A stretch of DNA of 27,879 nucleotides from contig JAUXAI010000009.1 of assembly GCA_030619985.1 (NCBI GenBank), positions 1 to 27,879 of the forward strand, given 5' to 3'. This stretch comes from a bacterium. Its GTDB lineage: Bacteria; UBP18; UBA7526. Position numbers and translations under genes: made by a program. Shown piece after piece: positions 6,928 through 26,671 of the stretch. The notes beneath the pieces were generated by a model. That model was not told where the DNA came from and made no database searches. It saw only the letters and a list, made by a program, of their open reading frames with translations. How positions within the stretch are numbered: position 1 is the stretch's first letter; each line of letters begins with the position of its first letter.

Positions 6928-7346
6928 AGTATCATGAGACTGAGATAAGAGTTAGGTTTAATGAGGTGGACCAGTGGGGGATGGTCTGGCATGGACACTA
7001 TATCAGCTATTTTGAGATGGGAAGGATTGATCTTGCCCGGCGCTTCGGTCTAACCCCTACTGACTTTGTCAAGATGGGCTATACTGCTCCGGTAATAGAA
7101 TTAAAATGCAATTATAAAGAGCCGGCCAGAAACGACGAGGAACTTATAATCCGCACTACCTTAGAGAGACCAACTAAGGCTGCTCTTACCTTTAAGTATC
7201 AAATCTTAAGAAAGAAGGATAAGAAGCTATTAGTCGAAGGTGAGACGACCCAGGTTCTCCTTGATAAAAAAGGCGAGTTAGTTTTGATTATTCCCAAAGA
7301 AATAAAGAAAAGGATTAATAAATTACTTGCCTACCTGGAAAAATGA
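6924..7346 (+). CDS. Hotdog-fold acyl-CoA/ACP thioesterase (YbgC/4HBT type)
   Basis: A 140-residue single hotdog domain, typical family length. The 4-hydroxybenzoyl-CoA thioesterase signature is visible at residues 11-33: RFNEVDQWGMVWHGHYISYFE, with the catalytic Asp16 and the conserved H-x-Y. It hydrolyses an acyl thioester in the cytoplasm, releasing an acid, or possibly acts as a dehydratase-like hotdog. Its ATG overlaps the previous TGA and its TGA overlaps the next ATG, so it is made together with the radical SAM and FAD enzymes, implying an acyl intermediate in the pathway (inference). Confidence 0.85.
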   Translation: MKYHETEIRVRFNEVDQWGMVWHGHYISYFEMGRIDLARRFGLTPTDFVKMGYTAPVIELKCNYKEPARNDEELIIRTTLERPTKAALTFKYQILRKKDKKLLVEGETTQVLLDKKGELVLIIPKEIKKRINKLLAYLEK

Positions 7347-10323: not shown

Positions 10324-10401
10324 CTAATAAACCAATTTTGTCTAAACCGATGCTGGGGATTCCCCACTTGGGACCATTCGCGCGAAAGGTAAAATAGGTA
10401 G

Positions 10402-11658
10402 ATGAGAAGAAAAGCCTTAATTCTTCCGCTTTTAATTGTTTTCTTTATCAGTTTGACCTTCCTTTCTTTATCTATAGAAAAGGGGGTCTATGGAAAAGGA
10501 TATTTAGAAGAGAGAAGTGGAATCCTCGTTCTCCATCTCAAAGGGAGTCCCTATGAGATGGGTTACCAGCATGGGATGCTCACCAAGCACTTGATGGCCA
10601 CGAGTAAGGAAGCCTTTGATGAAGCGGTCCCAGCGATAAAGGGGGGAAGGGTTGGAGAATGGATAGTAAAGAGGTACCTTTTCTGGAAGTTAGAGAAGAT
10701 GGAGAAGTATGTTCCGGAAGAGTTTATTGAAGAACTCAAAGGAATGGCAGATAGCATTACAGAGAGGGAAGTGGATTACAGAGAGATTCTACTCTACCAT
10801 GCTATGCGAGATATTGGACAGGTTCTTACCCGCCCCGGTAGAGATAGGTCGTCCAAGGACGACCGTTATTCCTTACTTTCCTATCCTGCTATCTCTAATG
10901 GGGGGTGTTCCAGTTTTGTTGTCCTACCCCAGACCACAAAGAACAAAGAACTTATTTGCGGTCGGAATTTCGACTTCTTAAAGGAAGGTTCTTTAGAGAG
11001 TCTAATTACCTTTTATGAACCAGATGAGGGAAACTCCTTTGTCTCCATCGGCTGGCCAGGGATGATCGGAGTGGTGAGCGGGATGAATGATAAAGGACTT
11101 ACAGTAGGACTATTGACCGCTTACTCCAAAGATGTTTCCTTTGATGGAATGCCTTCCTGTTTTCTTATGAGAAAGGTTCTCCAGTATGCAAATAGTGTGG
11201 AAGAAGCAAAAGAGATGATTATTAAGAGTAAAAGGACAGGTCCTAATATTTTTTTCTTAGCAGATAAAAAGGAAGCCTTAGTGGCAGAATGCTCGGCGAC
11301 CAAGTATGCCTTGCGAAAACCACAGGATGGTCTTCTTTATTCAAGCAATCATTTTTTAAGTTCTATCTATGAAAAAGACAAGAAACGAAAGAAGGCTTTG
11401 GAATCCGGAGAGAGTGAAACAAGATATAAAAGGATGAAGGAGTTGCTAAAAGAAAATAGTAGACAGATCGATATTGAATATGGTATTAAGATATTAAGGG
11501 ATGATTTAATTTTAAAAGAAAATACCCTTCACTCTGCGATATTTCGTCCCCGAACATTAGAATTCTTAGTCGCCCAAGGTTTGAGTACTAGAGGCGAATT
11601 CATAAAATTCAACCTAGAAAAGCCAGAGGTTAACAAGGAAAACTTATCAACTTATTAA
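10402..11658 (+). CDS. C45-type autoproteolytic acyltransferase/amidohydrolase, exported
   Basis: Resembles peptidase family C45/acyl-CoA:6-APA acyltransferase (Ntn hydrolase). Seen: hydrophobic N-terminus (4-24) acting as signal or anchor; GSPYEMGYQHG at ~48; the nucleophile site SNGGCSSFVV with Cys169, which in this family becomes the N-terminal nucleophile after self-cleavage; GRNFDF at ~187; WPGMIGVVSGMNDKGL at ~218; and SSNHF near the C-terminus. Members form or break amide bonds with fatty acyl groups. An exported copy in a lipid-export cluster could acylate or deacylate the product in the periplasm (inference). An 18-base palindrome lies in the coding region 16 residues before the nucleophile. 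The 3' end dissolves into a word tract that supplies the stop. Confidence 0.75.
   Translation: MRRKALILPLLIVFFISLTFLSLSIEKGVYGKGYLEERSGILVLHLKGSPYEMGYQHGMLTKHLMATSKEAFDEAVPAIKGGRVGEWIVKRYLFWKLEKMEKYVPEEFIEELKGMADSITEREVDYREILLYHAMRDIGQVLTRPGRDRSSKDDRYSLLSYPAISNGGCSSFVVLPQTTKNKELICGRNFDFLKEGSLESLITFYEPDEGNSFVSIGWPGMIGVVSGMNDKGLTVGLLTAYSKDVSFDGMPSCFLMRKVLQYANSVEEAKEMIIKSKRTGPNIFFLADKKEALVAECSATKYALRKPQDGLLYSSNHFLSSIYEKDKKRKKALESGESETRYKRMKELLKENSRQIDIEYGIKILRDDLILKENTLHSAIFRPRTLEFLVAQGLSTRGEFIKFNLEKPEVNKENLSTY
10847..10864. repeat. Perfect 18-base palindrome inside the C45 gene
   Basis: GGTCGTCC (10847-10854), AA, GGACGACC (10857-10864). It encodes the polar stretch DRSSKDDR just before the autocleavage region, and may be a small in-frame palindromic insertion. 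Confidence 0.55.
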
Positions 11659-11667
11659 CTTATCAAC
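11641..11667. repeat. Short-word tract (AACTTATCAACTTATTAAC)
   Basis: Three degenerate copies of AACTTATCAAC-type words. They encode the last residues (NLSTY) and contain the TAA stop of the C45 gene, then run on towards the next ribosome site. The same word family recurs at 24030-24094 and a TTGT version at 20355-20437. Confidence 0.65.
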
Positions 11668-11692
11668 TAATTCCACCTAAAAGGAGGTATTC

Positions 11693-13225
11693 ATGCGCGT
11701 ATTCTTAGTCGATGCCCCCCATAAAGTCTGGCCGCTGATGAGGGGATGGACTCCTAATCCGGGACTTCTTGCCATTGGGGCCTATATTGAAAAAGATTTC
11801 GAAGTAAAAGTAGTAGATGGAACGGTTCTGGAAGATTCCTGGGGGGACTTAGAAAAGATAATGAAAAAAGAGAAGCCAAAAATCGTGGGAATATCCTGCA
11901 TCACCACCTGCTTCATCTATGACACCATAAACGCCTGCCGCCTAATAAAGGAAGTGAGTCCCCGGACAACCATTGTTGCTGGGGGCAGTCATCCTGCCCT
12001 GGTTCCGGAAGAAACATTAAGGAGTTGTAAGGAGATAGATTACATTGTGGTGGGTGAGGGGGAGATTACTTTCTATGAATTCCTGAAGGCCTTTGAGAAG
12101 GGAGAGAAAGACTTTTCCCGGATTAAGGGATTGGCCTATTTAGACGGGAATAGATTTGTCTATACTGGAGATCGACCTCTGATTGAAGATTTGGATATCC
12201 TTCCTATGAATGCCTATCATCTCTTTGATATGTCCAACCCCAGATACAATATTGCCTCAGAAGGAAGAAACTCTCTATCCGTAACCTTTAGCCGGGGATG
12301 TGGCTATAGATGCACCTTCTGCTCAGAGACCATTCTTTGGCGCTACAGATGGAGAGGGAAGAGTGCCAAGAAAATGGTAGATGAGTTTCAATTGCTAAAG
12401 GAGAAACATGGCAGGACAGCCTTCTTTGTGGGGGATGACATGTTTAACTGGGATAGGAGACATACTGAAGAGTTCTGTGATGAGATGATTAAGAGGAAGG
12501 TGGGGGTAAACTTCTGGATACAAACCAGAGCTGACTTTCTCTTAAGGGATAAGGATCTAATTCCCAGATTGAAGGAGGCCGGATGCTATCAGATTATGAT
12601 GGGTTTAGAACACCACAGCCAGAAGGTTTTGGATGCTATAGGCAAGAAGGCCTTGGTTAAAGAGAGCATAGAGGCCATGAAACTCATCAAGAAGCATAGG
12701 ATTTCTGGCATGGCTACTTTGATGCTCGGCCATTGGGAGGATACCAAGGAGAATATGTATGATTTCTATAGATTTGCCAGGCCCTATCTCCATCACTATG
12801 GCCAGGGGGTGGTTACTCCTTTGCCCGGAACTCCATTCTATAAGGAGATGAAAAGGTTAGGTCGCATTAAGGTAACCGACTATTCTAAGTATGACTATCT
12901 CCACGCAATAATGCCCACCAAGACCATGTCCCCAGATGAGATTACCGGAACACTACTAAATCTTCACAGGAAGTTCTATCTCAACTGGCGCTTCTTCTGG
13001 CAGACTATCTTTCCTGAGCATCCTATGATTAGACCTATTCACTTACACTTTTTAAGGTATGCCTGGGATACCTTCAGGCAGGAGGCCTTCGGTGCCCCAG
13101 AGTGGGTCCAGCCAGGATACCAGACCTACGAAGAATATATAAAGCAGAAAGAAACAAGGAACGCGAAACGCGAAACGCCCGCCAAAAGCGAGGTCTCGCC
13201 CCTCCGGGGCGGACGTAACGCTTAA
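11693..13225 (+). CDS. BchE-like radical SAM enzyme (type 2, copy A)
   Basis: A 510-residue radical SAM protein with an N-terminal B12-binding-like domain, similar in architecture to anaerobic Mg-protoporphyrin monomethyl ester cyclase BchE and other P-methylase-type enzymes. Seen: MRVFLVDAPHKVW start, VVAGGSHPALVPEE-like loop at ~96, VGEGEITFYEFLKA, then Cys203/207/210 in SRGCGYRCTFC, FVGDDMF, LMLGHWEDTKENMYDF, and VTPLPGTPFYKEMKR. No DxHxxG motif. Paralogue of 17977: by eye about 40 of the first 68 residues are identical. Strong AAAAGGAGG ribosome site. The last ~20 residues come from a word tract plus a GC hairpin and are probably not functional. It converges on the minus-strand gene with a 4-base gap. 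Confidence 0.8.
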   Translation: MRVFLVDAPHKVWPLMRGWTPNPGLLAIGAYIEKDFEVKVVDGTVLEDSWGDLEKIMKKEKPKIVGISCITTCFIYDTINACRLIKEVSPRTTIVAGGSHPALVPEETLRSCKEIDYIVVGEGEITFYEFLKAFEKGEKDFSRIKGLAYLDGNRFVYTGDRPLIEDLDILPMNAYHLFDMSNPRYNIASEGRNSLSVTFSRGCGYRCTFCSETILWRYRWRGKSAKKMVDEFQLLKEKHGRTAFFVGDDMFNWDRRHTEEFCDEMIKRKVGVNFWIQTRADFLLRDKDLIPRLKEAGCYQIMMGLEHHSQKVLDAIGKKALVKESIEAMKLIKKHRISGMATLMLGHWEDTKENMYDFYRFARPYLHHYGQGVVTPLPGTPFYKEMKRLGRIKVTDYSKYDYLHAIMPTKTMSPDEITGTLLNLHRKFYLNWRFFWQTIFPEHPMIRPIHLHFLRYAWDTFRQEAFGAPEWVQPGYQTYEEYIKQKETRNAKRETPAKSEVSPLRGGRNA

Positions 13226-13229
13226 CGCG
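13160..13229. repeat. Short-word tract (ACGCGAAACGC) with GC hairpin
   Basis: ACGCGAAACGCGAAACGC words at 13160-13177, a GC-rich centre with a perfect hairpin CGCCCC-TCC-GGGGCG (13197-13211), then ACGTAACGCTTAACGCG words to 13229. It encodes the C-terminal tail and TAA stop of the radical SAM gene. The hairpin could also act as a two-way terminator between convergent genes, although no T-run follows. Confidence 0.6.
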
Positions 13230-13565
13230 TCATTTCTTGATGAGTCTATATATCTCCTCTACCCATTTCTCTGAAATCTTTAAGACCTTTGGCCAGCCGA
13301 AGGCCCGAATGCGCACCTTTAGAGTCTGAGAAACGTTCTTTTCATCCTGGTAATCGATGGTCAGGAAGACCTTTATCCAGGTATGGATGTAATCCTTTAC
13401 TACAGAGGCCTTAGATATTTTGGAAAGAGGGATACTGTAAAGGGGAAAGCCCCGCACTTTACACTCTATTCCTTCTTTGGTTAGAATTAACTTTCCTGGC
13501 CGTTGCTCCGCAGGATAACCGGGTATTCCACTATAGTAGATAACTTTGTTCTTCAAGATAGCCAT
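13230..13565 (-). CDS. Small PH/GRAM-like domain protein of unknown role
   Basis: The only minus-strand gene. It encodes 111 residues without a signal or membrane segment. The pattern of short beta strands (GKLILTKEGIECKV, FPLYSIPLSKISKASV, WIKVFLTIDY) followed by a C-terminal helix (KVLKISEKWVEEIYRLIKK) suggests a bacterial PH-like fold, of the kind where 'GKLxLTxEGIxxxG...IPLSxIxxVxV' occurs. The start is set by GGTAGAGGAGG just upstream on the minus strand. Its promoter appears to use the end of palindromic element copy 3. Function not known. Confidence 0.6.
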   Translation of the reverse strand: MAILKNKVIYYSGIPGYPAEQRPGKLILTKEGIECKVRGFPLYSIPLSKISKASVVKDYIHTWIKVFLTIDYQDEKNVSQTLKVRIRAFGWPKVLKISEKWVEEIYRLIKK

Positions 13566-13582
13566 ATTTCCTCCTCTACCAT

Positions 13583-13611
13583 ATCTTAAAGGTTAAGTCC
13601 TTAAAAGTCAA
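13583..13611 (-). promoter_or_regulatory. Promoter of the minus-strand gene, -35 at the edge of element copy 3
   Basis: On the minus strand: TTGACT (complement of 13606-13611), 17 bases, TAAGAT (complement of 13583-13588), then a leader of roughly 15 bases with GAGGAGG before the ATG. The -35 overlaps the outer end of the palindromic element, as at 2157. Confidence 0.55.
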
Positions 13612-13675
13612 CCCCGCACCTTTTCAATATTCATTTTTTATCTTAATACTTTGAATGGATAAAAGGTGCGGGGTT
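13608..13675. repeat. Palindromic element copy 3 (complete form)
   Basis: Arms ACCCCGCACCTTTT (13611-13624) and AAAAGGTGCGGGGT (13661-13674) are perfect inverted repeats around a 36-base AT-rich core. The right half, 13649-13674, is the exact reverse complement of 2037-2062, and the core also aligns to copy 1 with few differences. It sits between the divergent gene starts at 13565 and 13687. Confidence 0.75.
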
Positions 13676-13686
13676 AAGGAATCAAG

Positions 13687-14982
13687 ATGAAACTTCTACT
13701 AATCTTTCCTATGGGCAAAGGCAGGGTGATGGGCAAGCATTCTTTTTTCAAACTTGTGCCCTTAACTCTGCCCTATATCGCCGCCCTTACCCCGGAGGAT
13801 GTAGAGGTTACTATTGTTGATGACCTGGTGGATGAGATAGACTTCGGGGCCGATGTGGATCTGGTGGGATTGACCGTTCTCACCCCTTTGGCTCCCCGGG
13901 CCTATGAGATTGCAGACAGGTTTCGAGCAAGAGGGGTAAAGGTAGTCCTGGGAGGGGTGCATGTCACCATGTGTCCTCAAGAAGCAGCACCCCATGCCGA
14001 TGCTTTGGTCTTGGGTGAAGCAGAGGAGACCTGGCCCAAGCTCGTTAAAGACTTCAAAAAGGGAAGACTGAAGAAGTATTATCGCTGTCCCGGGCCTCCT
14101 GACTTAAAAGGGATTCCGGTGCCCAGGTGGGACCTATTGAAGATGAGATATCTCCCCACCTATTCCGTTCAGACCAGCCGCGGTTGCCCCCATGACTGCG
14201 ATTTCTGTTCAGTGACCACCTTCTTCGGTGGGAAGTATAGACTGAGACCGGTAGAGGATGTGGTAAATGAGGTCCAGACTCTAATCGAGAGTAGACGCCA
14301 GAAAGCTCCTTTAGGAAATATTTTCTTCTTCAATGATGATAATATCTTTGCCAATCCCAGCCATAGCAAGAGGCTCTTTAAGGCGTTAACTCCGCTTAGG
14401 ATAAAGTGGTTGGGCCAGGCGCCGATTACCATGGCCTGGAACGAGGAATTACTAAAGATTGGTGCTGATTCTGGCTGCATTGGAGTGCTCATCGGTTTTG
14501 AATCCCTCTCTCAACGGAATATAGATAAGATGGGAAAAAGGATTAATAAAGTAAAAGAGTATGAAGAGGCGATTAAAAGGATTCATTCCTACGGGATCAA
14601 GATCATGGGTTCCTTTATGTTCGGCCTGGACGAGGATAACAAAGGAGCCTTTGAGAGGGTGGTTCGATTCATGGAGAAGACCCATATCGATGTCCCGGGA
14701 CTGGGAATCGCTACCCCCTATCCTGGAACAAGATTCTATAAAAGGCTGCGTAGAGAGAACCGAATATTTGATAATGATTGGGCAAATTATGATAGTACGC
14801 GTAGCGTCCATCGTCCTCTCCGGATGAGCCCTCAGGAAGCGGATGAGGGTTTAATCTGGGCCTGGAAGAGGACAACATCCGTTCCCTCCATATTTAAGAG
14901 GACGGTCTTCCCTTCCAACCGCTCCCTCTTCTATTTCCTCTTCAACTTTGTCTTCCGCCAGACAGTACGCCGCATGTTCTGA
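13687..14982 (+). CDS. Radical SAM enzyme with B12-binding-like N-terminal domain (type 1, copy B)
   Basis: A 431-residue paralogue of the gene at 5662, collinear throughout. N-terminal Rossmann-like domain with VVLGGVHVTMCPQEA; cluster cysteines 167/171/174 in SRGCPHDCDFC, the same positions as copy A; IGFESLSQRNIDKM; MGSFMFGLDEDNKGAFE; TPYPGTRFYKRLRRENRI. No DxHxxG B12 motif seen. Like copy A, it begins within 20 bases of a palindromic element. ATG start with AAGGA from the sequence adjoining that element. Substrate unknown; presumably it catalyses a step parallel to copy A. Confidence 0.8.
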   Translation: MKLLLIFPMGKGRVMGKHSFFKLVPLTLPYIAALTPEDVEVTIVDDLVDEIDFGADVDLVGLTVLTPLAPRAYEIADRFRARGVKVVLGGVHVTMCPQEAAPHADALVLGEAEETWPKLVKDFKKGRLKKYYRCPGPPDLKGIPVPRWDLLKMRYLPTYSVQTSRGCPHDCDFCSVTTFFGGKYRLRPVEDVVNEVQTLIESRRQKAPLGNIFFFNDDNIFANPSHSKRLFKALTPLRIKWLGQAPITMAWNEELLKIGADSGCIGVLIGFESLSQRNIDKMGKRINKVKEYEEAIKRIHSYGIKIMGSFMFGLDEDNKGAFERVVRFMEKTHIDVPGLGIATPYPGTRFYKRLRRENRIFDNDWANYDSTRSVHRPLRMSPQEADEGLIWAWKRTTSVPSIFKRTVFPSNRSLFYFLFNFVFRQTVRRMF

Positions 14983-14989
14983 GACGCTG

Positions 14990-15145
14990 ATGACCGCAGA
15001 TCGAAACGCAGATGCCGGATGCGCTTTGCTGGCATTCGAGAGAGCATGAATATCAAGCAATGACCGCAGATTATCAGCGGCAATCAGCGAAGTAAATCAG
15101 CGGATAAGCCTCAAGGCAAACGAAGTGCGTTGAGTATCTGCGTCT
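14990..15145. repeat. Short-word tract (CGCAGAT / ATCAGCGG / ATCTGCG words)
   Basis: The 178-base gap is made of ACCGCAGAT and ATCAGCGG words in both orientations. It has a GC-rich imperfect hairpin at about 15010-15036 and ends in TATCTGCGTCTAAA just before the ribosome site of the next gene. No gene seen. Confidence 0.55.
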
Positions 15146-15160
15146 AAAGAGGTGAAGAAT

Positions 15161-15547
15161 ATGAAAAAAGTATTGATCTTAGTCTTAATAGTTCTTCTGG
15201 CAGGCTTTGCTGTGGCGAATGCCAAGAAAAAAGAAGAGAAAAAGCCTGCACCAATAGAGATCAGTCAGATAGCGGATGGAACTTACTTCGGGAAGACTAA
15301 AGGGATTCTTACTGGGGTAAAGGTAGAGGTAACAGTTAAGAAAGGGAAGATTACCAAGATTGAGATATTGAAGGCCAGAGGATGGCCGGCCTTCAAGAAG
15401 AAAGCGATTAAAGAAATGCCGGGAAGGATCATTAAGGCCCAGTCTCTGAAAGTAGATGCAGTAACCGGAGCTACCATCTCCTCAAAGAACATTATTAAAG
15501 CAGTAGAGAACGCTCTTCGAAAACAGGAAAAAAGCAAGAAGCAGTAG
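15161..15547 (+). CDS. Exported FMN-binding-domain protein (covalent FMN carrier)
   Basis: A 128-residue protein: signal peptide or anchor (residues 1-20), a lysine/glutamate linker, then one FMN_bind domain (PF04205). The flavinylation motif DAVTGATISS is clear at residues 99-108. In RnfG/NqrC-type domains the threonine of this motif (here Thr105) receives FMN from the flavin transferase ApbE. It would pass electrons outside the inner membrane. I take the ATG at 15161 because AGAGGTG lies six bases upstream; a GTG nine bases earlier is in frame but lies inside that ribosome site. No ApbE gene is in the window. Likely part of the electron supply for extracytoplasmic steps (inference). Confidence 0.8.
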   Translation: MKKVLILVLIVLLAGFAVANAKKKEEKKPAPIEISQIADGTYFGKTKGILTGVKVEVTVKKGKITKIEILKARGWPAFKKKAIKEMPGRIIKAQSLKVDAVTGATISSKNIIKAVENALRKQEKSKKQ

Positions 15548-15550
15548 ATA

Positions 15551-15583
15551 AAACCGTAAACGGTACACGGTAAACGGTTAACC
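15551..15583. repeat. Short-word tract (CGTAAACGG)
   Basis: Words CGTAAACGGTACACGGTAAACGG abut the ATG of the next gene, leaving no recognisable Shine-Dalgarno. Same word family as 4597-4670. Confidence 0.55.
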
Positions 15584-17158
15584 ATGCAAAAAATTGATTG
15601 TTTATTCATAAATACCCCCAAGATGAATAGTTACTATAGGCCCTTGGGGGATTTTATTTTGGATACCTATATGCCCATGGGCTTATTGGCCATGGCCGGT
15701 TCATTGACTAAAAAAGGTTTTTCTTCTAAGATTATCCACTTAGGAGTGGAATGGATCCTAAACCACGATTTCTCTATTCTGAATTACCTCAAAGGTAGGA
15801 AAGTTAAAGTAATTGCCATTCCTCTTCACTGGCACCATCAGTCCTATGATTCCATTGAACTGGCCAGAAAGATAAAGAAGGTCTATTCTAAGGCCTATAT
15901 CGTCTTAGGAGGTTATACCGCCAGTTACTTTGATGAGGAAATTCTAAGAAGATTTGAATTCATCGATGGGATTATAAGGGGAGATGGAGAGAAACCTATT
16001 CTTTCTCTGGTAAGAGCCATCATTAAGAAGAGAGCTCTATCGAGGGTTCCTAACTTAACCTGGAGAAAAGGGAGCAAAATCCTTAAAAACAAACTTTCTT
16101 ACATTGCTACCCAGGAAGACTTGGATGAACTATCCTTCACCAATTTTAAACTCTTGAAGAATTATCAGACTTATATCAGATATGTTGGTTTCCTACCCTT
16201 CTTTGCCAAAAATTTTTCCAAAGAGGCCAACTACTTGATGTTCTCCTACCGCAGCCCCACCTTTCCTCTCTTTACTGGTCGGGGGTGTTTGGCCAACTGC
16301 ACCTACTGTGGAGGAGGAAGAGAAGCTCAGGAATATATTAATGGAAGGGGGGAGCCCGTCTTCAGATCTCAAGAAAAAGTCTTAGAGTCTATAAAAGAGG
16401 CTAAGGAGTATGGGTACGAGACGGTTCTCATGGACTTCCATCCCTCTCCACAAAGTGACGATTATTATATAAAACTTTTCCAGATGATTAGAAAAGAGAG
16501 GATATATATGGAGTGCCTCTTCGGTTGTTTTTCTTTGCCCAGTAAAGAATTTGCGGAAGAGTTTCACAAGACCTTTCCGGGCAGAAGATCAGCCATCTGG
16601 CTCTCCCCAGAAAGCGGAGTAGAGATGGTGAGAAAGAAGATAAGAGGGTTCTTCTATACCAACGGTCAGATTATGGAGGCCTTAGAGAATCTTAATAGGT
16701 TGTATATCATTACCGAACTCTATTTTACCTTTGGCTTTCCCTTTGAGAAAGAAGAGGATGTCTTGAAGACCAAGAGATTTGCTTTCTATTTGAAAAAGAG
16801 ATTTAAATCTATCTGGGCCATCAGGGCCTATCCCCTAGAGATGGAGCCCGCCTCTCCCTGGCAAAGAGACCCAGAAAAGTTTGGGGTAGTATCAAATAGA
16901 AAGAGTTTTATCGACTTCTATAAGGCAAATAGCCAGGAGAATCCAGAGGTTCTGAATAGTCTGGGCTATTATATCCCGGGTTTCTTTAAAAAAGGTGCTT
17001 CTAACTTTGAAACTTTTGAGAAGAAAATGCAAGAATTAAAGTGCCGGCACTTCTGCCTCATCCATCCCAATGCCCGAAAATCAGGTCCTCCCTGGCTGGG
17101 AAGACTCATGTGCCGGGGAATGAGCCTCTATCAAAAACTGAGAAGAAAAAAGACTTGA
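15584..17158 (+). CDS. Radical SAM enzyme with B12-binding-like domain (type 3, divergent)
   Basis: A 524-residue radical SAM protein distinct from the other four. N-terminal B12-binding-like domain with PMGLLAMAGSLTKKG, an unusual LHWHHQSYDS at ~81-90 where most relatives have a hydrophobic-Ser/Thr loop, and YIVLGGYTASYFDEE. Cluster cysteines are Cys235/239/242 in GRGCLANCTYC. The C-terminal part is long, with a further Cys motif (CRHFCLIHP at ~485). No paralogue in the window. The start codon lacks a clear ribosome site, so translation may depend on structure or coupling. Function unknown. Confidence 0.75.
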   Translation: MQKIDCLFINTPKMNSYYRPLGDFILDTYMPMGLLAMAGSLTKKGFSSKIIHLGVEWILNHDFSILNYLKGRKVKVIAIPLHWHHQSYDSIELARKIKKVYSKAYIVLGGYTASYFDEEILRRFEFIDGIIRGDGEKPILSLVRAIIKKRALSRVPNLTWRKGSKILKNKLSYIATQEDLDELSFTNFKLLKNYQTYIRYVGFLPFFAKNFSKEANYLMFSYRSPTFPLFTGRGCLANCTYCGGGREAQEYINGRGEPVFRSQEKVLESIKEAKEYGYETVLMDFHPSPQSDDYYIKLFQMIRKERIYMECLFGCFSLPSKEFAEEFHKTFPGRRSAIWLSPESGVEMVRKKIRGFFYTNGQIMEALENLNRLYIITELYFTFGFPFEKEEDVLKTKRFAFYLKKRFKSIWAIRAYPLEMEPASPWQRDPEKFGVVSNRKSFIDFYKANSQENPEVLNSLGYYIPGFFKKGASNFETFEKKMQELKCRHFCLIHPNARKSGPPWLGRLMCRGMSLYQKLRRKKT

Positions 17159-17976: not shown

Positions 17977-19512
17977 ATGCGTGTTTTTCTAATTGATCCG
18001 CCACATAAGATCTGGAGTGAGATGAGAGGTTGGGTACCGGCTCCAGCCTTGACCGCTTTGGGGGCCTATCTGGAGAAGGATTTCGACATTCGGGTTCTGG
18101 ACTGTTCAGTAATGGAGCATCCCTGGAGAGACTTAGAAGAGGCAGTAAAAGAAGAGAAGCCAGAGGTAGTGGGAATCACTACCATCGCCCTTATGTTCTA
18201 TTATGATACTCTGGATGCGGCAAAACTCATAAAGATGGTTTCTCCTAAGACAAAAGTGATAGTTGGTGGTCCCGATCCCTCTCTAATCCCAGAGGAATTC
18301 CTGAGGGATGCTAAAGGGAATATTGACTTCATTGTGGTGGGAGAGGGGGAGATTACTGCCTACGAGTTATTAAAAGCCATAGAGAGAAAGGAAAAGGACT
18401 TTTCTAAGATAGAGGGATTGGCCTATCTAAAGAATGGTAAGTATGTCTATACCGGAGATCGGGAATTCATCAAGGATTTAGATATCCTCCCCATGCCCGC
18501 CTATCATCTCCTTCCCATGGATAATCCCATGTATGGCATCCCAGCCTTCATGCCCCCCCATACGGTAACTATTTGCACTAGCCGGGGCTGTCCTTATAGA
18601 TGCACCTTCTGTTCCCAGACCGTGATGTGGAGGCATACCTGGAGGGGAAGGAGCGCTAAGAAAGTAGTGGATGAGATCGAACTATTGGTTACAAAGTATA
18701 AGAAAAGGGCGATTCTAGTAGGGGATAACGACTTTTTAATAAATAGGAAGCGAAATATCGAGTTCTGTGATGAGATGGAGAGGAGAAGGATAAGGATAGA
18801 CCATATCTGGGTTCAGGCAAATCCGGCCCACATTATAAGAGATAAAAATCTTCTCCCTCGCTTTAAGAAGGTTGGGATCTTCATGACCTTACTGGGGACA
18901 GAGTCTGCCACCCAGAAGATCGTGGATAAGTATCACAAGCCCATGGGCGTGGAACAGAATATCGAGGCCTTCAAACTACTGAGGAAGAATAAGATATTGG
19001 TCTTAGCAAGCATGATGATTGGTGGGGAGCATGAGACTATGGAGACTATAAACGCAATGGCTAAATTGGGCAGAAAGTATGGGGATTTCCCTACCTGGGC
19101 CCATGCCACCCCCTTTCCTGGAACACCTTATTATGAGGAATGTAAGAGAAAAGGTTTGATTGAGGTGACAGATTATAGGAAGTATGACTGGGCCAGTGCC
19201 ATCACCCCTTCCCGGACCCTCTCTCGAGAGGAATTGGAGAAGTTACGCATCGGTTTATTCCAGAGGGTCTATGGCCTCAGACTTTTTGTCAAGGCCTTCT
19301 TCTACCCTAATCCCGACGTGCGTAGATACCAGAGATTCGCTGTTAACGAATGGCTGGCAAGACAGATCTTCAAGAGACCCTGGGTGGCACCAAATTATCA
19401 GACCTTTGAGGATTATATGAAAGGACACGAAACAACACCCCATACCACTCCGACTTTAAGTCGGAGGCTACGGGGCAGGCGAAATAGCACGAAACAAAAG
19501 AATGCAAAATAA
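17977..19512 (+). CDS. BchE-like radical SAM enzyme (type 2, copy B)
   Basis: A 511-residue paralogue of the gene at 11693. B12-binding-like N-terminal domain (MRVFLIDPPHKIW; VIVGGPDPSLIPEE; VGEGEITAYELLKA); cluster cysteines Cys205/209/212 in SRGCPYRCTFC; then GDNDFLINRKRNIEFCDEM, MMIGGEHETMETINAM and TPFPGTPYYEECKRKG. No DxHxxG motif. BchE inserts an oxygen from water into Mg-protoporphyrin ester without O2, and other relatives methylate or rearrange; the reaction here is unknown. Strong AAGGAGG ribosome site. The last ~30 residues (from about GHETTPHTT) are encoded by a word tract with a GC hairpin and look like an accretion. Confidence 0.8.
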   Translation: MRVFLIDPPHKIWSEMRGWVPAPALTALGAYLEKDFDIRVLDCSVMEHPWRDLEEAVKEEKPEVVGITTIALMFYYDTLDAAKLIKMVSPKTKVIVGGPDPSLIPEEFLRDAKGNIDFIVVGEGEITAYELLKAIERKEKDFSKIEGLAYLKNGKYVYTGDREFIKDLDILPMPAYHLLPMDNPMYGIPAFMPPHTVTICTSRGCPYRCTFCSQTVMWRHTWRGRSAKKVVDEIELLVTKYKKRAILVGDNDFLINRKRNIEFCDEMERRRIRIDHIWVQANPAHIIRDKNLLPRFKKVGIFMTLLGTESATQKIVDKYHKPMGVEQNIEAFKLLRKNKILVLASMMIGGEHETMETINAMAKLGRKYGDFPTWAHATPFPGTPYYEECKRKGLIEVTDYRKYDWASAITPSRTLSREELEKLRIGLFQRVYGLRLFVKAFFYPNPDVRRYQRFAVNEWLARQIFKRPWVAPNYQTFEDYMKGHETTPHTTPTLSRRLRGRRNSTKQKNAK

Positions 19513-19620: not shown

Positions 19621-20361
19621 ATGAAAATCTTAGGAATATGCGGGACGCATAAGAGGCAAGATCAGGAATCTTCCAGCGAATGGCTATTGAAAGAGGCCCT
19701 GAAGGCCGCCGAGAAGAAGGGAGCAGAGACAAAGTCCATTAGACTCATCAATTATAAAATTACCCCTTGTTTTGCCTGCAATAAATGCCGGATTGGGGAG
19801 AAGTGCCCTCTATTGGAAGACCCTAATGATGATGTCAAGAAGATCTTTGATATGATTGATGAGGCGGATGCTCTTATCTTCTCCTCTCCTACCTATGCCT
19901 ACCAGCAGCCAGCGGTCACCTTAAGCCTCTTCCATAGGGTTATCCCCCTACATGAGATTGAGCGTTCAAAGGAATGGGGACTGGATATTCGGGCCTATAA
20001 GTGCAATCCCTTCCATGGGAAGCCAGTGGGGAATATGGCGGTCGGTGCTGGATTGGGAATGGAGGGAGCTCTCTACTATCTCTTCCATGTCTTGAAGGCT
20101 TTGGGTGCTACTTCTGTCATCTGTGTGGGAATAAGTCTATTAGAGGCAGAGACCAAGAACCTTTTTGCTGCCGCCCCCATGGACCCGGCGATAAAGAAAC
20201 TGTTGGAGATGCCGGGAACGAAGTTAGAAGAAAATGAGTGTGCCATTGAACTCGCCCGGGCAGTGGGCAAGAGAGTGGTGGATGTCTATCATTCAGAGGT
20301 CTTCCAATCGCTCAAAGACGTCTTAAATATTAGGCAATTAGTTGATAAGTTGATCAGTTAA
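19621..20361 (+). CDS. Iron-sulfur flavoprotein (Isf-type NADPH-dependent FMN reductase family)
   Basis: A 246-residue flavodoxin-fold protein. N-terminal ILGICGTHKRQDQESSSEWLL (FMN phosphate loop), then the compact cysteine motif CX2CX2CX5C at Cys50/53/56/62, typical of the 4Fe-4S cluster of archaeal and bacterial iron-sulfur flavoproteins, then ADALIFSSPTYAYQQPAV (residues ~84-101) and GLGMEGALYYLFHVLKALGA (~142-161). It probably moves electrons between ferredoxin and a pathway enzyme, or reduces a small molecule. RBS TAGGAGGT. The last codons and the TAA stop belong to a TTGATAAGTTGAT/AACAAG word tract. Confidence 0.8.
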   Translation: MKILGICGTHKRQDQESSSEWLLKEALKAAEKKGAETKSIRLINYKITPCFACNKCRIGEKCPLLEDPNDDVKKIFDMIDEADALIFSSPTYAYQQPAVTLSLFHRVIPLHEIERSKEWGLDIRAYKCNPFHGKPVGNMAVGAGLGMEGALYYLFHVLKALGATSVICVGISLLEAETKNLFAAAPMDPAIKKLLEMPGTKLEENECAIELARAVGKRVVDVYHSEVFQSLKDVLNIRQLVDKLIS

Positions 20362-20462: not shown

Positions 20463-20717
20463 GTGGATTGGGACAAGAAGGCTTATGAGAACTTTAAGAA
20501 GTTGATTGATCAGGCGCCGGTCTTTTCGAGAAGGACGGCAGAGAGGCTGGTCTCTCAGAAGGCAGAGGAGAATGCTAAGGCCAGGGGTTCAGAGAGAATT
20601 GAGAAGGAGGATATGATAAAGGCCTTTCTGAGCGAGACCCCGGGCCCCTTCAAAAGACGGATGTTTGCTGATATGGAGAGATTCGGCATCGATTACAAGA
20701 AATACCAAGAGAAGTAA
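20463..20717 (+). CDS. Stand-alone PCP_red-domain protein
   Basis: An 84-residue cytoplasmic protein that is essentially one PCP_red domain (PF08369), the small C-terminal domain of light-independent protochlorophyllide reductase subunit ChlB/BchB. Seen: WDKKAYENFKKLIDQAPVFSR, AERLVSQKAEENAKARG, IEKEDMIKAF and a closing GIDYKKYQEK. The start is GTG at 20463, set by AGGAGG at 20451-20456; the open frame extends further upstream but lies in the repeat tract. A second, divergent copy is fused to the U32 protein at 22449 and ends GIDITKFRD. The domain also occurs outside photosynthetic bacteria and its role there is unknown. The next gene starts one base after its stop. Confidence 0.75.
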   Translation: MDWDKKAYENFKKLIDQAPVFSRRTAERLVSQKAEENAKARGSERIEKEDMIKAFLSETPGPFKRRMFADMERFGIDYKKYQEK

Positions 20718-20718
20718 T

Positions 20719-21918
20719 ATGGAGAAAAAACCAAGGATTGGGATTGTTGGCGGGGGACTGAACGGATTGTCGGCTGCCTATTTCTTGAAGAAAGAAGGGA
20801 TAGAGGCTACGGTCTATGAGAAATCTTCCGAGGTGGGAGGAAAGTTAGCTCGGGTGATGGTAGATGGCGTCTCCATCGATACCGGTGCTTTACTCTATTC
20901 CAGAGAACTCAATCCCAATTTCGATGTTCTAATAAATGAATTAGGAATAGAGTGCGAGAGGAGATATCTGAATACCTTTGCTCTTCAAATCGAGGATAAG
21001 ATTACTGCCTTGAATCCCTTGGCCTTGGCAAAGTCGAGACTCTTCTCCTTTGGAGAATTCCTGAAATGGAGGAAGGTGAAGAAATTCATCAATTCCTTAA
21101 GTTTTGATTTGGATGAGGTGGATGAAAGAATAAACAAGTTACATCAGATCTCTTTAGAGAAATACTTAAGGGACGTTGGTTTCCGGCAGGAACTCATCGA
21201 CTCCTTCTTCCGGGCCTTCTGCTCCTTTGCCTATGTAGATGGGGCAAAGGATTTGGCCGCAGACTTCGGTTTATTTCTCTTGGCCTTCCCCTTGAAGACT
21301 ATCATGACCCCGGTAAAGGGGATGAGCGAGGTAGCTCTGGAACTTAAGAGGAGATTGGGCGATAGTGTAAGACTGAATACCAGAGTAGTTAATATATCCC
21401 AGAACCCGGATAAGACTTTCGCAATAAAAATAGAGAAGAATGGTCAGATCTCTGAAGAGACCTTTGACTACTGCATCTTAGCAACAGGAAGAAGAAATTT
21501 TAAGAGCATCTTCCCAGAAGTTGACTTTGAGATAGAGGTTACCAGGGCCCGGGGAGTGATTCTGGAATCGGATTGCCCAACCTATAAGAAATATAATGTA
21601 CTCATCATCTCGAAGTATAAGAATGAACACGGTGTCCAAGGAGGAAAGATTAAGCACCTGCCGAATGGAAGGAGTTTCTATGGCATGATGCTCTATCGAC
21701 CGGATGCTGACTTGGGGAAAGTATTCGGGAAGCACAAAGTCCATCACAGGTTCGGCTGGTCACCGGCCATGGCCTGGATGTCCCCGGGATGTAGGATACC
21801 AGATGTCAAGACTAACATTCCCAACTGCTTTGTCATCGGTGACTTCGACCGCTATCCTGGCGTCGAGCCCTGCATCTTCACCGCCCAGAAAGTAGTGAAG
21901 AGCATAAAGGAGGTATAG
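20719..21918 (+). CDS. FAD-dependent amine-oxidase/protoporphyrinogen-oxidase-like protein
   Basis: A 400-residue flavoprotein. N-terminal FAD site RIGIVGGGLNGLSAAYFLKKEG (6-27) followed by VYEKSSEVGGKLA; ALLYSRELNP region; FDYCILATGRRNF near 260; and a C-terminal FVIGDFDRYPGVEP motif contacting FAD. The pattern fits the HemY/protoporphyrinogen oxidase and amine oxidase superfamily, different from the CrtI pair. I start at the ATG at 20719, one base after the PCP_red stop, rather than at an upstream in-frame codon inside that gene. Coupled with the PCP_red protein and followed by a flavodoxin four bases on, suggesting one redox unit. Substrate unknown. Confidence 0.75.
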   Translation: MEKKPRIGIVGGGLNGLSAAYFLKKEGIEATVYEKSSEVGGKLARVMVDGVSIDTGALLYSRELNPNFDVLINELGIECERRYLNTFALQIEDKITALNPLALAKSRLFSFGEFLKWRKVKKFINSLSFDLDEVDERINKLHQISLEKYLRDVGFRQELIDSFFRAFCSFAYVDGAKDLAADFGLFLLAFPLKTIMTPVKGMSEVALELKRRLGDSVRLNTRVVNISQNPDKTFAIKIEKNGQISEETFDYCILATGRRNFKSIFPEVDFEIEVTRARGVILESDCPTYKKYNVLIISKYKNEHGVQGGKIKHLPNGRSFYGMMLYRPDADLGKVFGKHKVHHRFGWSPAMAWMSPGCRIPDVKTNIPNCFVIGDFDRYPGVEPCIFTAQKVVKSIKEV

Positions 21919-21922
21919 AATA

Positions 21923-22408
21923 ATGAAGATTTTGATTGTTTATTATTCCAAGACGAGGAAGACGAAGGAGATTGCCCATACTATGGCCAATGAACTGGCT
22001 GACGGGAATGAAGTGAAATTAAGAAGGATAAAGATGAAAGGTGAAAGAAACCTTCTGGCCACTTATCTTTTAGATACCAAGAAGGCAATAAGAAGAGAAA
22101 AACCGGAGATTGAGGTGATCGACTTTGACCATAGGAAGTATGACCTCATCCTCTTGGGAACGCCGGTATGGTCTGCTAATCCTGCTCCAGCAATAAATAC
22201 CTATCTTGATAGGAGCGACTTCAGAGATAAAAAGGTAGCCCTTTTTGTTACCCTGCGTCTGATGGGGGGAGAGAAGGTAGTGAAACTTTTAACTGAAGAG
22301 ATAGAAAAGAGAGGTGGTAAGGTCACTAATTCTGTAATCATCAAGACCGGTCTCTTCCATGAGAAAAGAATGATAGAAGAAGCAAAGACATTCGCGAGTA
22401 AACTTTGA
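21923..22408 (+). CDS. Flavodoxin-family protein
   Basis: A 161-residue single flavodoxin domain. The N-terminal ILIVYYSKTRKTKEIAHTMA is in the place of the usual FMN phosphate loop, with T-R-K-T instead of T-G-N-T. LILLGTPVWSANPAPAINTYL supplies the second FMN loop, and LFVTLRLMGGEKVVKLLTEEIEKRGG the third. No Fe-S motif. The altered first loop may change flavin binding or redox potential. RBS GGAGGT overlaps the end of the FAD gene, so the two are coupled. Likely the electron donor for the neighbouring FAD or U32 enzymes (inference). Confidence 0.8.
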   Translation: MKILIVYYSKTRKTKEIAHTMANELADGNEVKLRRIKMKGERNLLATYLLDTKKAIRREKPEIEVIDFDHRKYDLILLGTPVWSANPAPAINTYLDRSDFRDKKVALFVTLRLMGGEKVVKLLTEEIEKRGGKVTNSVIIKTGLFHEKRMIEEAKTFASKL

Positions 22409-22448
22409 TTACGGGGCGCTAATCTGTGCCTAAAGGAGGTAAAGTAAA

Positions 22449-23897
22449 ATGAAACTATCAATACCTTGTAATTGGGATATGGAATTAATAGAAGCAACAA
22501 AAGATTTGCCTGTCTATGATTTTTATGGTGCTATAGCCACCACGCCGATTGGTCATGGTAGACCGGCGCTTATTCTTCCTAGTGTGGATGAGAATTTTGT
22601 AGCAGAATTTATTAAAAAGGTTCAGTCCACAAACCGAAAATTTTCGTATGTACTTAATGCTACTAGTATGGGTAATTTAGAGTTCGATCCCAAGTTTCAT
22701 AGGACAATACTAAAGTATCTTCAATGGTTAGTTGATATAGGGGTAGATGCGGTTCATGTATCAATTCCGTACCTGATGGAAATAATTATACATCAATTTC
22801 CTAAATTGAAAGTAACCACATCAGTGATGGCCCATACTTGTTCTGTTGATATGGCTAAAGAATTTGAAAGGATGGGTGTGTCAGCAATAAATCTGAGTTT
22901 GGAAGTTAACAGAGATTTTAAAGCTATAAGGGCGATAAGAAAGGCGGTAAAAATTCCTCTGATATTAATTCCTAACTTAGCAGACTTACGTCAATGTCCC
23001 TATAGGCATTATCATTATAGTATACTTGGTTTTACTTCCCAAACCCATAATATTGATAAAGCTCGAAGATACTGGGCTATGCAGCCTTGTAAGATGTATT
23101 GCAATGAAAGGAAATTAAGTGAGCCATTAGAAATTTTAAAATCATGCTTTATCAGACCTGAAGACTTAAAATTTTATGAAAAGGAAGGGATAGATATTTT
23201 TAAGTTATCAGGAAGGCATCAAAATACTGAATGGATAATGAAAGTAGCAAGGGCATATGCCAACCGAGAGTATAAAGGAAATCTTGTGGATATCATAGAT
23301 GCCATCATAATGAACAAAAAGGATATTAGAGAGTTCCATCCGGAGTTTATAACTGAATCAGACCCAGAAATCCAGGCAGTTCCTGAATTTTATAGCTGGA
23401 GTAGATTAGATTTTAGTGCCTCTGATGTTGTTAACATAGACAATACCAAGTTAAATGGATTTATTGATCACTTTGCGGACGATGGCTGCAATCCTTCTAT
23501 CGACTGTGATGAGTGCGGCTATTGCGCAGAATGGGTTGATAAAGTAGTTACCATAAACCCCGAGTTGTCTAAACAATATTTAGAAGCCATAAAGAAACAT
23601 CGTAATGCATTAGTGATGAGTAAATTTGCAAAAGAAGTTGAGAAGCTGGAGTGGTATAAGAAAGTGAGGGTTGCTTTTGAAAATACAATGAGTATAATCC
23701 CTTTATTGTTTAGAAAAGTTGCCAAAACCGCAATTGCTACCAATGCAGAGAAACTTGCCAAAGAAAGAGGCTCTTCTATTGTGGGGGAAGAAGATTTAGC
23801 AAAAGCGTTTCGGGAAAGTGTACCTTCTAAATTTCAGGGTAAGATGAGCGAGAAGTTAAAATCCAATGGGATTGATATAACTAAATTTAGAGATTAA
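22449..23897 (+). CDS. U32-peptidase-family Fe-S protein fused to a PCP_red domain
   Basis: A 482-residue fusion. Residues 1-~335 match the U32 family (UbiU/UbiV, RlhA, TrhP), which hydroxylates rings or RNA without O2 using a 4Fe-4S cluster: Cys183, Cys214, Cys218 and Cys233 fit the four-ligand set, with FKLSGR at ~251. A second cysteine set follows: Cys347/353/356/359 (CX5CX2CX2C). The C-terminal ~82 residues (LEWYKK to FRD) are a PCP_red domain like the 84-residue protein at 20463. Known relatives transfer oxygen from prephenate or similar donors; a comparable anaerobic hydroxylation is plausible here. Third codon positions look more AT-rich than in the neighbours. RBS AAAGGAGGT. A strong terminator follows at 24102. 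Confidence 0.8.
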   Translation: MKLSIPCNWDMELIEATKDLPVYDFYGAIATTPIGHGRPALILPSVDENFVAEFIKKVQSTNRKFSYVLNATSMGNLEFDPKFHRTILKYLQWLVDIGVDAVHVSIPYLMEIIIHQFPKLKVTTSVMAHTCSVDMAKEFERMGVSAINLSLEVNRDFKAIRAIRKAVKIPLILIPNLADLRQCPYRHYHYSILGFTSQTHNIDKARRYWAMQPCKMYCNERKLSEPLEILKSCFIRPEDLKFYEKEGIDIFKLSGRHQNTEWIMKVARAYANREYKGNLVDIIDAIIMNKKDIREFHPEFITESDPEIQAVPEFYSWSRLDFSASDVVNIDNTKLNGFIDHFADDGCNPSIDCDECGYCAEWVDKVVTINPELSKQYLEAIKKHRNALVMSKFAKEVEKLEWYKKVRVAFENTMSIIPLLFRKVAKTAIATNAEKLAKERGSSIVGEEDLAKAFRESVPSKFQGKMSEKLKSNGIDITKFRD

Positions 23898-24190: not shown

Positions 24191-26671
24191 GTGAGGAAAA
24201 GAATTCTAAGAAAGATTGCTCAGATTTCATATCATAGATATAGATTAGTTCTAAGTATCGCTTTAATCCTGACCATCGCCTCACTCCTCCTATCCTTCCG
24301 TCTGGAACTGAAGACAGATGTCATCCATCTCCTTCCTCCAGAATCCAAGGCAGCAAAAGTATTCTGTCGGGCTATCTCCTCCTTCGGTACCTTTGATTAC
24401 CTTATTGCCTTCATCCGTACAACGGATTACGCGGATAAAAACACGGATATTAAGCGATTAGAGGATTTTAGTGATTCCTTTGCCGCTGAATTAGGAAAGT
24501 CTGACCTTATTGAAGGGATAGACTATAAAGTCTCTGAAGAGATGAAGGGATTCTTTCAGGAGGAGTTATTAAAGCGTCCTTACCTTTACCTTTCTTCAAG
24601 CGATATTAGAAAGTTGAAGACTAAACTGAGTGATGAGGCCATCTATCGTCAGATAAAGGAGAATAGACGCCTCTTGGCCAGTCCTATCTCATTCGCTACA
24701 AAGGACTTCATCCAGAAAGACCCCTTTAATCTAAGAAGCATATTTAAAGGCTATATCCTGCAGCAGAAAGGACCCTATAATCTCGACCTCAGTAGAGGTT
24801 ATTACCTCTCTTCCGATCAGAAGGCCCTCCTGATGATTATCAAACCCAAGAGGCCGCCCACAGATATTGATTTTGATAAGAAGTTGCTAAAAACCATTAA
24901 GGAGGCAGAGAAAAAGATCTCCAAAGAAGGAATAAAGGTAGATTATACCGGTGGCTACATCATGGCTCTGGATGATGAGAGAATGATTAAGAGGGACATC
25001 ATACTCACCCTTTCCCTCGCCTTCTTTTTAGTCCTCACTCTATTCTTTCTTACTTTTAGACGAAAGGAGACCTTCTTCTTTGTGAGCGTTCCCCTTTTAA
25101 TGGGTCTGGCCTGGACAGTGGGGGTTGCTTCTTTATATCCCAGGCATCTCAATATGGTCACCTTCGGCTTCTTCCCCATCCTAATCGGCTTAGGAGTGGA
25201 TTATGCCATCCACATCTACAACCGCTACTTAGAAGAGAAGAGAAAAGGCAAGGATACCTTGAGCTCATTGGAGATTACTCTCTCTCAGACAGGGGAGGGA
25301 ATACTGACCGGTGCTCTAACCACTGCGGTTGCCTTTTATTCTTTGACCTTCACTAAATTCCGGGGACTATCTGAGTTAGGATTCCTTTCCGGGACAGGGA
25401 TCTTAGCCTGTCTCCTGTCCATGTTCTTCATCCTTCCTGCTATTTTGAGCTGGCAAGCCAAGAGGAAGAGATTTATACCAAAACTCTTGCATCCCTTTGG
25501 ATTGGAAAAGATTTCTAAGATTCTCTTAAAGTCTCCCAAGATTACCTTAATCGTTGCTATCTTTATCACTTTAATTTTGGGCTTGAGTGCTTTAGGGATC
25601 ACCTTTGATAGTGACTTTCGAAACTTGAGACCAAGGGAGACTCCAGCCTTCAGGGTCCGGAATGAGATGGGGAAGAAGTTTGGCTCTCCCTCTGATCCTC
25701 TAATGATTATCGCTTCTGGTAAAGATAAGGAAGAGGCTCTCCAGACCAATGAGAGGATAGTCCAGAGAATAGAGGAATTAAAAAAGGAAGGGAGAATGGA
25801 ATATTATCAATCCCCGATTAGTCTTCTTCCTTCAAAGAAGAGGGCTCGTGAGAATATTGAAGAGTTAAGAAGGTTTGACTTTGAGAGCATAATCACTACC
25901 TTCAAAGAAGCCCTCCTAAAGAATGGCCTCAGAATAGAGGCCTACCAAAGCTATATCGATGAAATAAGAAATTTAGAGGCGAGGCTAAAAGGACCCGTCT
26001 CTGTTTCAGGGAAGGATCTGGAGAAGATGACCAAACGCTATCTTATCAAAGACGAAGAAGGATTCAAGACTCTTACCTTAGCTTATCCTGTGAAGAAGAT
26101 CCTTTCTCCAAAAGAAGTAGATGAGTTCGAAGAGAGAATAAAAGGAAACGAGAAGGGGATCGAAATTACTGGGGTGGGGATTATTGCCAGTGAACTCAAG
26201 AGGTTAATCACTAAGGATTTTATCTTAGCTACAGTCCTTGCCTTCTCTGGGGTCTTTATCATGCTTTTTCTTCACTTTAGAAGAATAAAGGTAGTAGTTC
26301 TTGCCCTCATTCCCCTAATCTGTGGTATAATTTGGATGTTGGGGATTATGAGGCTCATTGGCCTGCGAATGAACTTTGTCAATATCGTGGTCACTCCCTT
26401 AATCTTGGGAATAGGGATAGACGATGGGATCCATATCATCCACCGCTACTTAGAAAAGAGACCTAAAGGAGTAGAAGATGCCATTCACCATACGGGAAGG
26501 GCGGTGGTCATGACTTCTCTGACCACCATGGTGGGCTTTGGTAGCCTGGTCTTCGCCCAGTATAGAGGATTGGCCACCATGGGAGCCCTTGCCCTTCTTG
26601 GCGTAGGCCTATGCCTCATTGCTTCTTTAACCATTTTGCCGGCGTTACTTAAAATAACAGAAGACAGTTAG
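24191..26671 (+). CDS. MMPL/RND-family lipid exporter (HpnN-like)
   Basis: An 826-residue inner-membrane transporter with two RND halves: TM1 at ~18-36, a large periplasmic loop, five membrane segments (~270-420), a second lone segment (~450-470), another loop, and five more segments (~675-820). The paired family motifs GLGVDYAIHIYNRYLE (~335) and GIGIDDGIHIIHRYLE (~745) carry the acidic residues for proton coupling. Relatives such as HpnN export hopanoids, and MmpL proteins export glycolipids, so it is a good candidate to move the cluster's product. GTG start, placed by GAGAGGTG seven bases upstream. Own promoter at 24137. Residues ~77-86 are encoded by repeat-like words. The stop lies in another word tract. 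Confidence 0.85.
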   Translation: MRKRILRKIAQISYHRYRLVLSIALILTIASLLLSFRLELKTDVIHLLPPESKAAKVFCRAISSFGTFDYLIAFIRTTDYADKNTDIKRLEDFSDSFAAELGKSDLIEGIDYKVSEEMKGFFQEELLKRPYLYLSSSDIRKLKTKLSDEAIYRQIKENRRLLASPISFATKDFIQKDPFNLRSIFKGYILQQKGPYNLDLSRGYYLSSDQKALLMIIKPKRPPTDIDFDKKLLKTIKEAEKKISKEGIKVDYTGGYIMALDDERMIKRDIILTLSLAFFLVLTLFFLTFRRKETFFFVSVPLLMGLAWTVGVASLYPRHLNMVTFGFFPILIGLGVDYAIHIYNRYLEEKRKGKDTLSSLEITLSQTGEGILTGALTTAVAFYSLTFTKFRGLSELGFLSGTGILACLLSMFFILPAILSWQAKRKRFIPKLLHPFGLEKISKILLKSPKITLIVAIFITLILGLSALGITFDSDFRNLRPRETPAFRVRNEMGKKFGSPSDPLMIIASGKDKEEALQTNERIVQRIEELKKEGRMEYYQSPISLLPSKKRARENIEELRRFDFESIITTFKEALLKNGLRIEAYQSYIDEIRNLEARLKGPVSVSGKDLEKMTKRYLIKDEEGFKTLTLAYPVKKILSPKEVDEFEERIKGNEKGIEITGVGIIASELKRLITKDFILATVLAFSGVFIMLFLHFRRIKVVVLALIPLICGIIWMLGIMRLIGLRMNFVNIVVTPLILGIGIDDGIHIIHRYLEKRPKGVEDAIHHTGRAVVMTSLTTMVGFGSLVFAQYRGLATMGALALLGVGLCLIASLTILPALLKITEDS

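Follow-up and report, generated by a model that had tools for sequence, protein, structure and literature searches.

Free and U32-fused copies of a PCP_red/DUF2621-type domain as a possible recruitment module of oxygen-independent tailoring enzymes

The DNA analysed here is one whole contig of 27.9 kb (JAUXAI010000009.1, referred to as the window) from a 1.25-Mb, 84% complete genome of a bacterium of the UBP18 lineage. It encodes a protein of 84 amino acids (aa) and, downstream of it, a protein of the Peptidase_U32 (U32) family whose C-terminal tail resembles the small protein. An initial annotation had taken both for PCP_red, the C-terminal domain of ChlB/BchB, and had left open whether a tetrapyrrole-like substrate is handled or PCP_red is a general docking or redox module. 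We therefore asked what such domains do at this locus. The reading that we favour is that they are a recruitment or recognition module carried by oxygen-independent tailoring enzymes. The homology and the distribution behind it are observed, and the recruiting role itself has, in our judgement, about an even chance of being right.

Identity and fold of the two small domains

The 84-aa protein and the U32 tail are one type of domain, about 82 aa in length and composed of four helices. Against PCP_red (PF08369) the small protein scored 21.8 bits (E 2e-4) and the tail 13.8 bits (E 0.063), and neither reached the curated cut-off of 32.5 bits. DUF2621 (PF11084, cut-off 27.7 bits) outscored PCP_red for both, with 21.8-23.8 bits for the small protein and 27.0-29.7 bits for the tail; these matches start at profile position 54-57, the N-terminal 54 or so positions of the family being missing. 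The two window domains are 34-37% identical to each other (tblastn E 1e-13 to 1e-14 in a small database), and the copies of the 84-aa protein in the other two genus genomes are 89-91% identical to it. When a 12-member alignment of the window's domain type, in which W3, P19, A34, E35, R41, D50 and P60 are kept, was compared by hhalign with an alignment of PCP_red, 43 columns were aligned with a probability of 94.2% (P 1.1e-7), which puts the relationship beyond chance.

The AlphaFold2 model of the 84-aa protein (pLDDT 93.5, pTM 0.83) consists of four helices, and the helices of the U32 tail are located at residues 404-414, 419-439, 447-457 and 460-472 of its model. A histone-like fold had been suspected from the sequence, but the fold matches are mainly AAA+ lid domains (RuvBL, MCM and magnesium chelatase ATPase, Z 7-9), an arrangement too common for a function to be read from it. 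The nuclear magnetic resonance (NMR) structures of PCP_red, 2l09 (a free cyanobacterial protein) and 2kru (ChlB), ranked 4 and 6 in Foldseek (probability 0.94 and 0.84, E 0.24-0.25), with AAA+ lid domains scoring equally well or better.

We conclude that the window domains are distant homologues of PCP_red in one superfamily, whose DUF2621-type members have an extra fourth helix; they are DUF2621-type outliers of that superfamily and not canonical PCP_red, so the initial assignment holds as distant homology and not as family membership. They share with PCP_red the core pattern W...P.fR...A, but they have a longer helix 1-2 region and the fourth helix (P..F...L..lGid), and they stand outside any nitrogenase-like enzyme. 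DUF2621, which occurs in Bacillus subtilis, is the best Pfam match across all 82 residues including the fourth helix, whereas the window domains differ from it in being attached to biosynthetic enzymes or encoded next to them. The domain contains no conserved redox residue, which favours docking or recognition over a redox function. The idea of a carrier domain was rejected, as the domain has no conserved Ser or Cys.

Distribution of the domain on other enzymes

The initial annotation had called for a survey of PCP_red beyond photosynthesis. PCP_red matches were obtained in 32 of 290 diverse genomes, with up to nine per genome, and a ChlB-like frame (starting with MKLAYWMY, VKLAIWSY or the close variant MRLAYWMY) was seen in about six of the 32. 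The other hosts are radical S-adenosylmethionine (SAM)/SPASM proteins (one with three copies), Usp, NIR_SIR-ferredoxin (a siroheme-type reductase), CGGC and DUF169 proteins, and a protein of about 155-190 aa, which had no further Pfam domain in the one tested. Since PCP_red is widespread on proteins other than ChlB, its presence does not imply a tetrapyrrole; PCP_red itself is a general module.

The window's domain type, hereafter called the tag, forms the C-terminus at six of the 46 loci at which the species collection contains the window's U32 subfamily, those of the two genus relatives, a Lokiarchaeota (L088), a Helarchaeota (L089), a Bacteroidales (L090) and a Lachnospiraceae (L093); two more U32-tag fusions (L178 and L179) have LuxE- or LuxC-type genes as neighbours. 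In the Lokiarchaeota cluster the tag is N-terminal on two radical SAM/SPASM enzymes and on a PTase_Orf2 prenyltransferase, and C-terminal on the U32 protein. Its neighbours there are an SCP2 protein and a B12-binding radical SAM protein (rSAM_ladder_B12 290.7 bits, cut-off 360), and the four tag copies of that genome (G386) all lie within this cluster. Among 244 relatives, the tag was found in 24 genomes, with 1-9 copies each. The tagged enzyme set recurs in about a dozen related Asgard clusters; a single Asgard cluster can have the tag on four or five different enzymes, and many encode a U32-tag-SCP2-like protein of about 680 aa, with the tag in the middle, where others have a free SCP2 (the SCP2-like end scored 16.6 bits, below the cut-off, in the one tested). 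The ABBA prenyltransferase (PTase_Orf2) bears the tag at its N-terminus at L088:6050-7219 (173.8 bits) and at its C-terminus at L174:8117-9325 (215 bits). The Bacteroidales fusion adjoins two UbiA and a squalene-hopene-type cyclase; the Lachnospiraceae fusion adjoins a B12-binding radical SAM protein, a polyprenyl synthetase and three radical SAM proteins, two of which were tested and are relatives of SPASM-type maturases. Rab-type small GTPase-like genes, recognised by the look of their sequences, adjoin some clusters and fit an Asgard origin of these.

In a tree of 70 of these short domains, the tags sorted by enzyme type with 8 changes, the minimum being 7 and the shuffled mean 38.6, which suggests that tags stay with their enzymes in the course of evolution. 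The tag of the L174 prenyltransferase fell outside the clade of N-terminal tags; independent re-tagging was considered and set aside, as the approximately unbiased (AU) test did not reject a single clade (p 0.46). Whether the free and the fused copy in the window arose by recent duplication was likewise put to the AU test, which gave p 0.30.

We propose that the tag is a pathway-wide recruitment or recognition module which marks the tailoring enzymes of oxygen-independent clusters (radical SAM/SPASM enzymes, ABBA prenyltransferases, U32 proteins and U32-SCP2 proteins) both in Asgard archaea and in bacteria of several phyla, with free copies acting in trans, and we regard this proposal as evenly poised. 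In the window, the U32 tail and the free 84-aa copy would hold the U32 protein together with the pathway enzymes on a common partner: they may bind one another, a carrier or the substrate as it grows. The closest general comparison is with docking domains and with the recognition elements of ribosomally synthesised and post-translationally modified peptides (RiPPs). Like these, the tag is a small domain which either stands alone or is attached to mutually unrelated tailoring enzymes within a cluster, but it is of another fold and family, and no precursor peptide was identified. Thus, of the initial suggestion of a general docking or redox module, the docking part gains from the spread outside ChlB and the multi-enzyme tagging in Asgard clusters, and is favoured over the redox part.

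The tag could alternatively be a lid that covers the active site and makes contact with a hydrophobic substrate; the enzymes would then have the tag in common because they act on one substrate. Canonical PCP_red forms, after all, the C-terminus of ChlB, a region of ChlB/BchB that is said to contact protochlorophyllide, and one scaffold could serve all the tagged enzymes of an Asgard cluster, in a distribution resembling that of a RiPP recognition element. A fixed lid is, however, awkward to reconcile with a tag that stands at the N-terminus, at the C-terminus or in the middle relative to unrelated catalytic folds, and with the free copies. For these reasons we favour recruitment and consider a lid rather unlikely. 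It is less probable still that the tag is passive, serving stability or oligomerisation, and has no pathway-specific partner. Its small helical form and its conserved residues, which are mostly structural (W3, P19, E35 and P60), would suit such a role, but the tag is restricted to clustered tailoring enzymes, as with the four copies of the Lokiarchaeota genome, and also exists free.

The U32 protein and its candidate Fe-S sites

Of the two profile searches suggested at the outset, that with PF01136 placed the protein in Peptidase_U32 well above the cut-off (Table 1), and that with PF08369 matched both small regions at the sub-cut-off scores given above. The U32 barrel aligned with structure 5d88 over 231 residues (VIA-align Z 22.0, rmsd 2.8). 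The residue pattern suggests two candidate iron-sulphur (Fe-S) sites, one per region: D179-X3-C183-X30-C214-X3-C218 (site 1) and C347-X5-C353-X2-C356-X2-C359 (site 2). Among 45 aligned U32 members, C183, H189, C218, C353 and C359 are invariant, C356 is kept in 44 and C347 in 43; position 179 is Cys in 42 and is Asp only in the window's genus. This U32 subfamily is present in 24 of the 386 sampled genomes. A scan of viral contigs with the U32 protein returned a single pattern match, which is not a relative.

UbiU and UbiV have Fe-S motifs of the CX6CX15CX3/4C type (UbiU CX6CX16CX38C, UbiV CXnCX12CX3C; PMC6747719), and the cysteine spacing of the window protein does not match them. What the protein has in common with the UbiU/UbiV/UbiT system is the U32 TIM barrel, the clustered cysteines and, in Asgard clusters, an SCP2 partner or fusion (PMC6747719); besides the spacing, it differs in its second, C-terminal four-Cys site, in the tag, in the Asp that replaces one cysteine in the window's genus and in having no ubiquinone context. 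We suppose that it would be an oxygen-independent Fe-S tailoring enzyme working like UbiU/UbiV (PMC6747719), possibly with hydroxylase-like chemistry, and that the neighbouring flavodoxin may supply its electrons.

Several observations weigh against recruitment as we picture it. The U32-tag fusion is rare among the sampled bacteria, and some cluster enzymes (the B12-binding radical SAM protein and a U32 partner of about 385 aa) have no tag. The window domains carry charges of +3 and +6; as both are positive, simple mutual charge pairing is unlikely, and tag-tag charge pairing finds no support in the window. Furthermore, the Fe-S chemistry of the window U32 protein may differ, as judged from the Asp at site 1 where most relatives have Cys.

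Evidence bearing on a tetrapyrrole substrate

ALAD (PF00490) and the Oxidored_nitro family of BchN/B (PF00148) gave no match in the three genus genomes, which are 75-93% complete; the same profiles matched in 11 and 4 of 14 control genomes, respectively. The initial annotation had described radical SAM proteins of the region as BchE-like. This is true of the BchE/HpnJ/HpnR superfamily but not of BchE, because the two closest window proteins scored 254.6 and 260.4 bits against the equivalog TIGR02026 (cut-off 481), and all five B12-binding radical SAM proteins of the window are far under that cut-off. Likewise, the label HemY-like for the FAD protein overstated its kinship: it scored 38.8 bits against TIGR00562 (cut-off 97.85) and 40.7 bits against NF008845 (cut-off 560), and its best NCBIfam match was HpnE, with 51 of the 283 bits needed.

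It can still be argued that the operon modifies a porphyrin-like molecule, since PCP_red-, BchE- and amine-oxidase-superfamily proteins occur together and the best scores of the tagged Asgard radical SAM proteins were to the heme enzymes AhbD/NirJ, though below cut-off. The equivalog cut-offs are missed widely, however, and the genus genomes, although incomplete metagenome-assembled genomes (MAGs), all three agree in having no match to ALAD or Oxidored_nitro. Tetrapyrrole handling is therefore very improbable; only with a scavenged substrate would it not already be disfavoured.

Probable nature of the product

A lipid-type product is the most likely one in this organism, as the free tag lies beside ketosynthases in related loci and the window encodes LolA, a LipA-type acyltransferase, a thioesterase, CrtI-like proteins and an MMPL exporter. 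The pathway would modify a fatty or polyketide-type lipid, and the MMPL and LolA proteins would export it. At a contig edge in the sister genus (G003) stands a nearly identical free-tag C-terminus, and after it come ApbA, a TIGR04076-like protein and a pair of ketosynthases (the last two identified from the look of their sequences); the order is the same in an Omnitrophica (L186), where TIGR04076 scored 103.5 bits. The ApbA-TIGR04076-ketosynthase-ketosynthase cassette beside a free tag was seen in two phylogenetically distant genomes (L186:1936-6043 and L199:4040-8316). At L194:1483-1719, a 78-aa tag-like protein adjoins TusA-like and ThiF/MoeB-like genes, again identified in this way.

An isoprenoid or quinone-type product, in which a prenylated ring is made or modified, would be compatible with the tag as a recruitment module. 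Prenyltransferases, SCP2, UbiA, cyclase and polyprenyl synthetase adjoin U32-tag fusions elsewhere, and the window has CrtI-like and HpnN/HpnE-like proteins. But trans-polyprenyl synthase (PF00348) had no match in the three genus genomes (G000-G002) and was present in 14 of 14 controls, which argues against a home-made isoprenoid here, and the free tag adjoins ketosynthases in the sister genus and Omnitrophica; we consider such a product improbable.

Among open-licence literature we found no papers on DUF2621 or on this tagging, and nothing relevant on PCP_red or on Asgard aromatic prenyltransferases. The superfamily is not new, and databases already show such fusions; there is nevertheless a real chance that a new recognition module is at hand. 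If so, the domain would be a sequence handle for uncharted anaerobic biosynthetic clusters, including Asgard ones that encode an aromatic prenyltransferase, the annotation of a 'chlorophyll' domain in so many non-photosynthetic anaerobes would be accounted for, and the role of PCP_red in ChlB/BchB would become testable outside chlorophyll chemistry.

Gene organisation of the window

The features of the window are listed in Table 1. The gene anatomy given by the initial annotation was confirmed, except that the U32 gene lies three genes after the 84-aa gene, not four.

Table 1 Features of the window and the matches on which their assignment is based
Feature	Position	Strand	Evidence
Probable remainder of the same lipid-type cluster	2999..17158	+	Pfam/NCBIfam matches; order also in G002
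B12-binding radical SAM protein, BchE/HpnJ/HpnR superfamily	17977..19512	+	PF02310 and PF04055 above cut-off; BchE 254.6 vs 481 bits
NADPH-dependent FMN reductase-type flavoprotein	19621..20361	+	PF03358 74.9 bits
Standalone PCP_red/DUF2621-type protein, 84 aa	20463..20717	+	GTG start, AGGAGG upstream; DUF2621 and PCP_red matches
FAD-dependent amine-oxidase/CrtI-superfamily protein	20719..21918	+	PF01593 81.4 bits
Flavodoxin, likely electron donor	21923..22408	+	PF12682 40.1 bits, above cut-off
U32-family TIM-barrel protein with two candidate Fe-S sites and C-terminal tag	22449..23897	+	PF01136 55.9 bits (cut-off 22.4)
PCP_red/DUF2621-type domain, C-terminus of the U32 protein	23643..23894 (about)	+	DUF2621 27.0-29.7 bits
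MMPL/HpnN-like RND lipid exporter	24191..26671	+	PF03176 158.8 bits; HpnN 322.7 vs 752 bits

The FAD gene starts one base after the 84-aa gene. The order from the radical SAM gene at 17977 through the FMN reductase, small protein, FAD protein and flavodoxin genes to the U32 gene is kept in G001 and G002 with 82-99% identity; the genus relatives are CSMAG_2684 and CSMAG_2709, where we take CSMAG to stand for cold-seep MAG. Relatives of the FAD protein were found only in its own genus, with none in the other sampled genomes at E 1e-15. The stretch 2999..17158 encodes a LipA-type acyltransferase, LolA, EFR1, B12-binding radical SAM proteins, a 4HBT thioesterase, two CrtI-like proteins, a C45 acyltransferase and FMN_bind. 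The five B12-binding radical SAM proteins of the window lie within 14 kb (5662-19512), and the second and fifth, as well as the first and third, are about 47-49% identical to each other.

Promoter and terminator scans of the window gave counts at chance level. Short tandem arrays with units of 7-8 bp, a different one in each, occupy seven mostly intergenic stretches (4597-4627, 11641-11672, 15551-15582, 17801-17863, 20401-20436, 24028-24095 and 26662-26723), and in the other two genus genomes the array that precedes the 84-aa gene has a different sequence.

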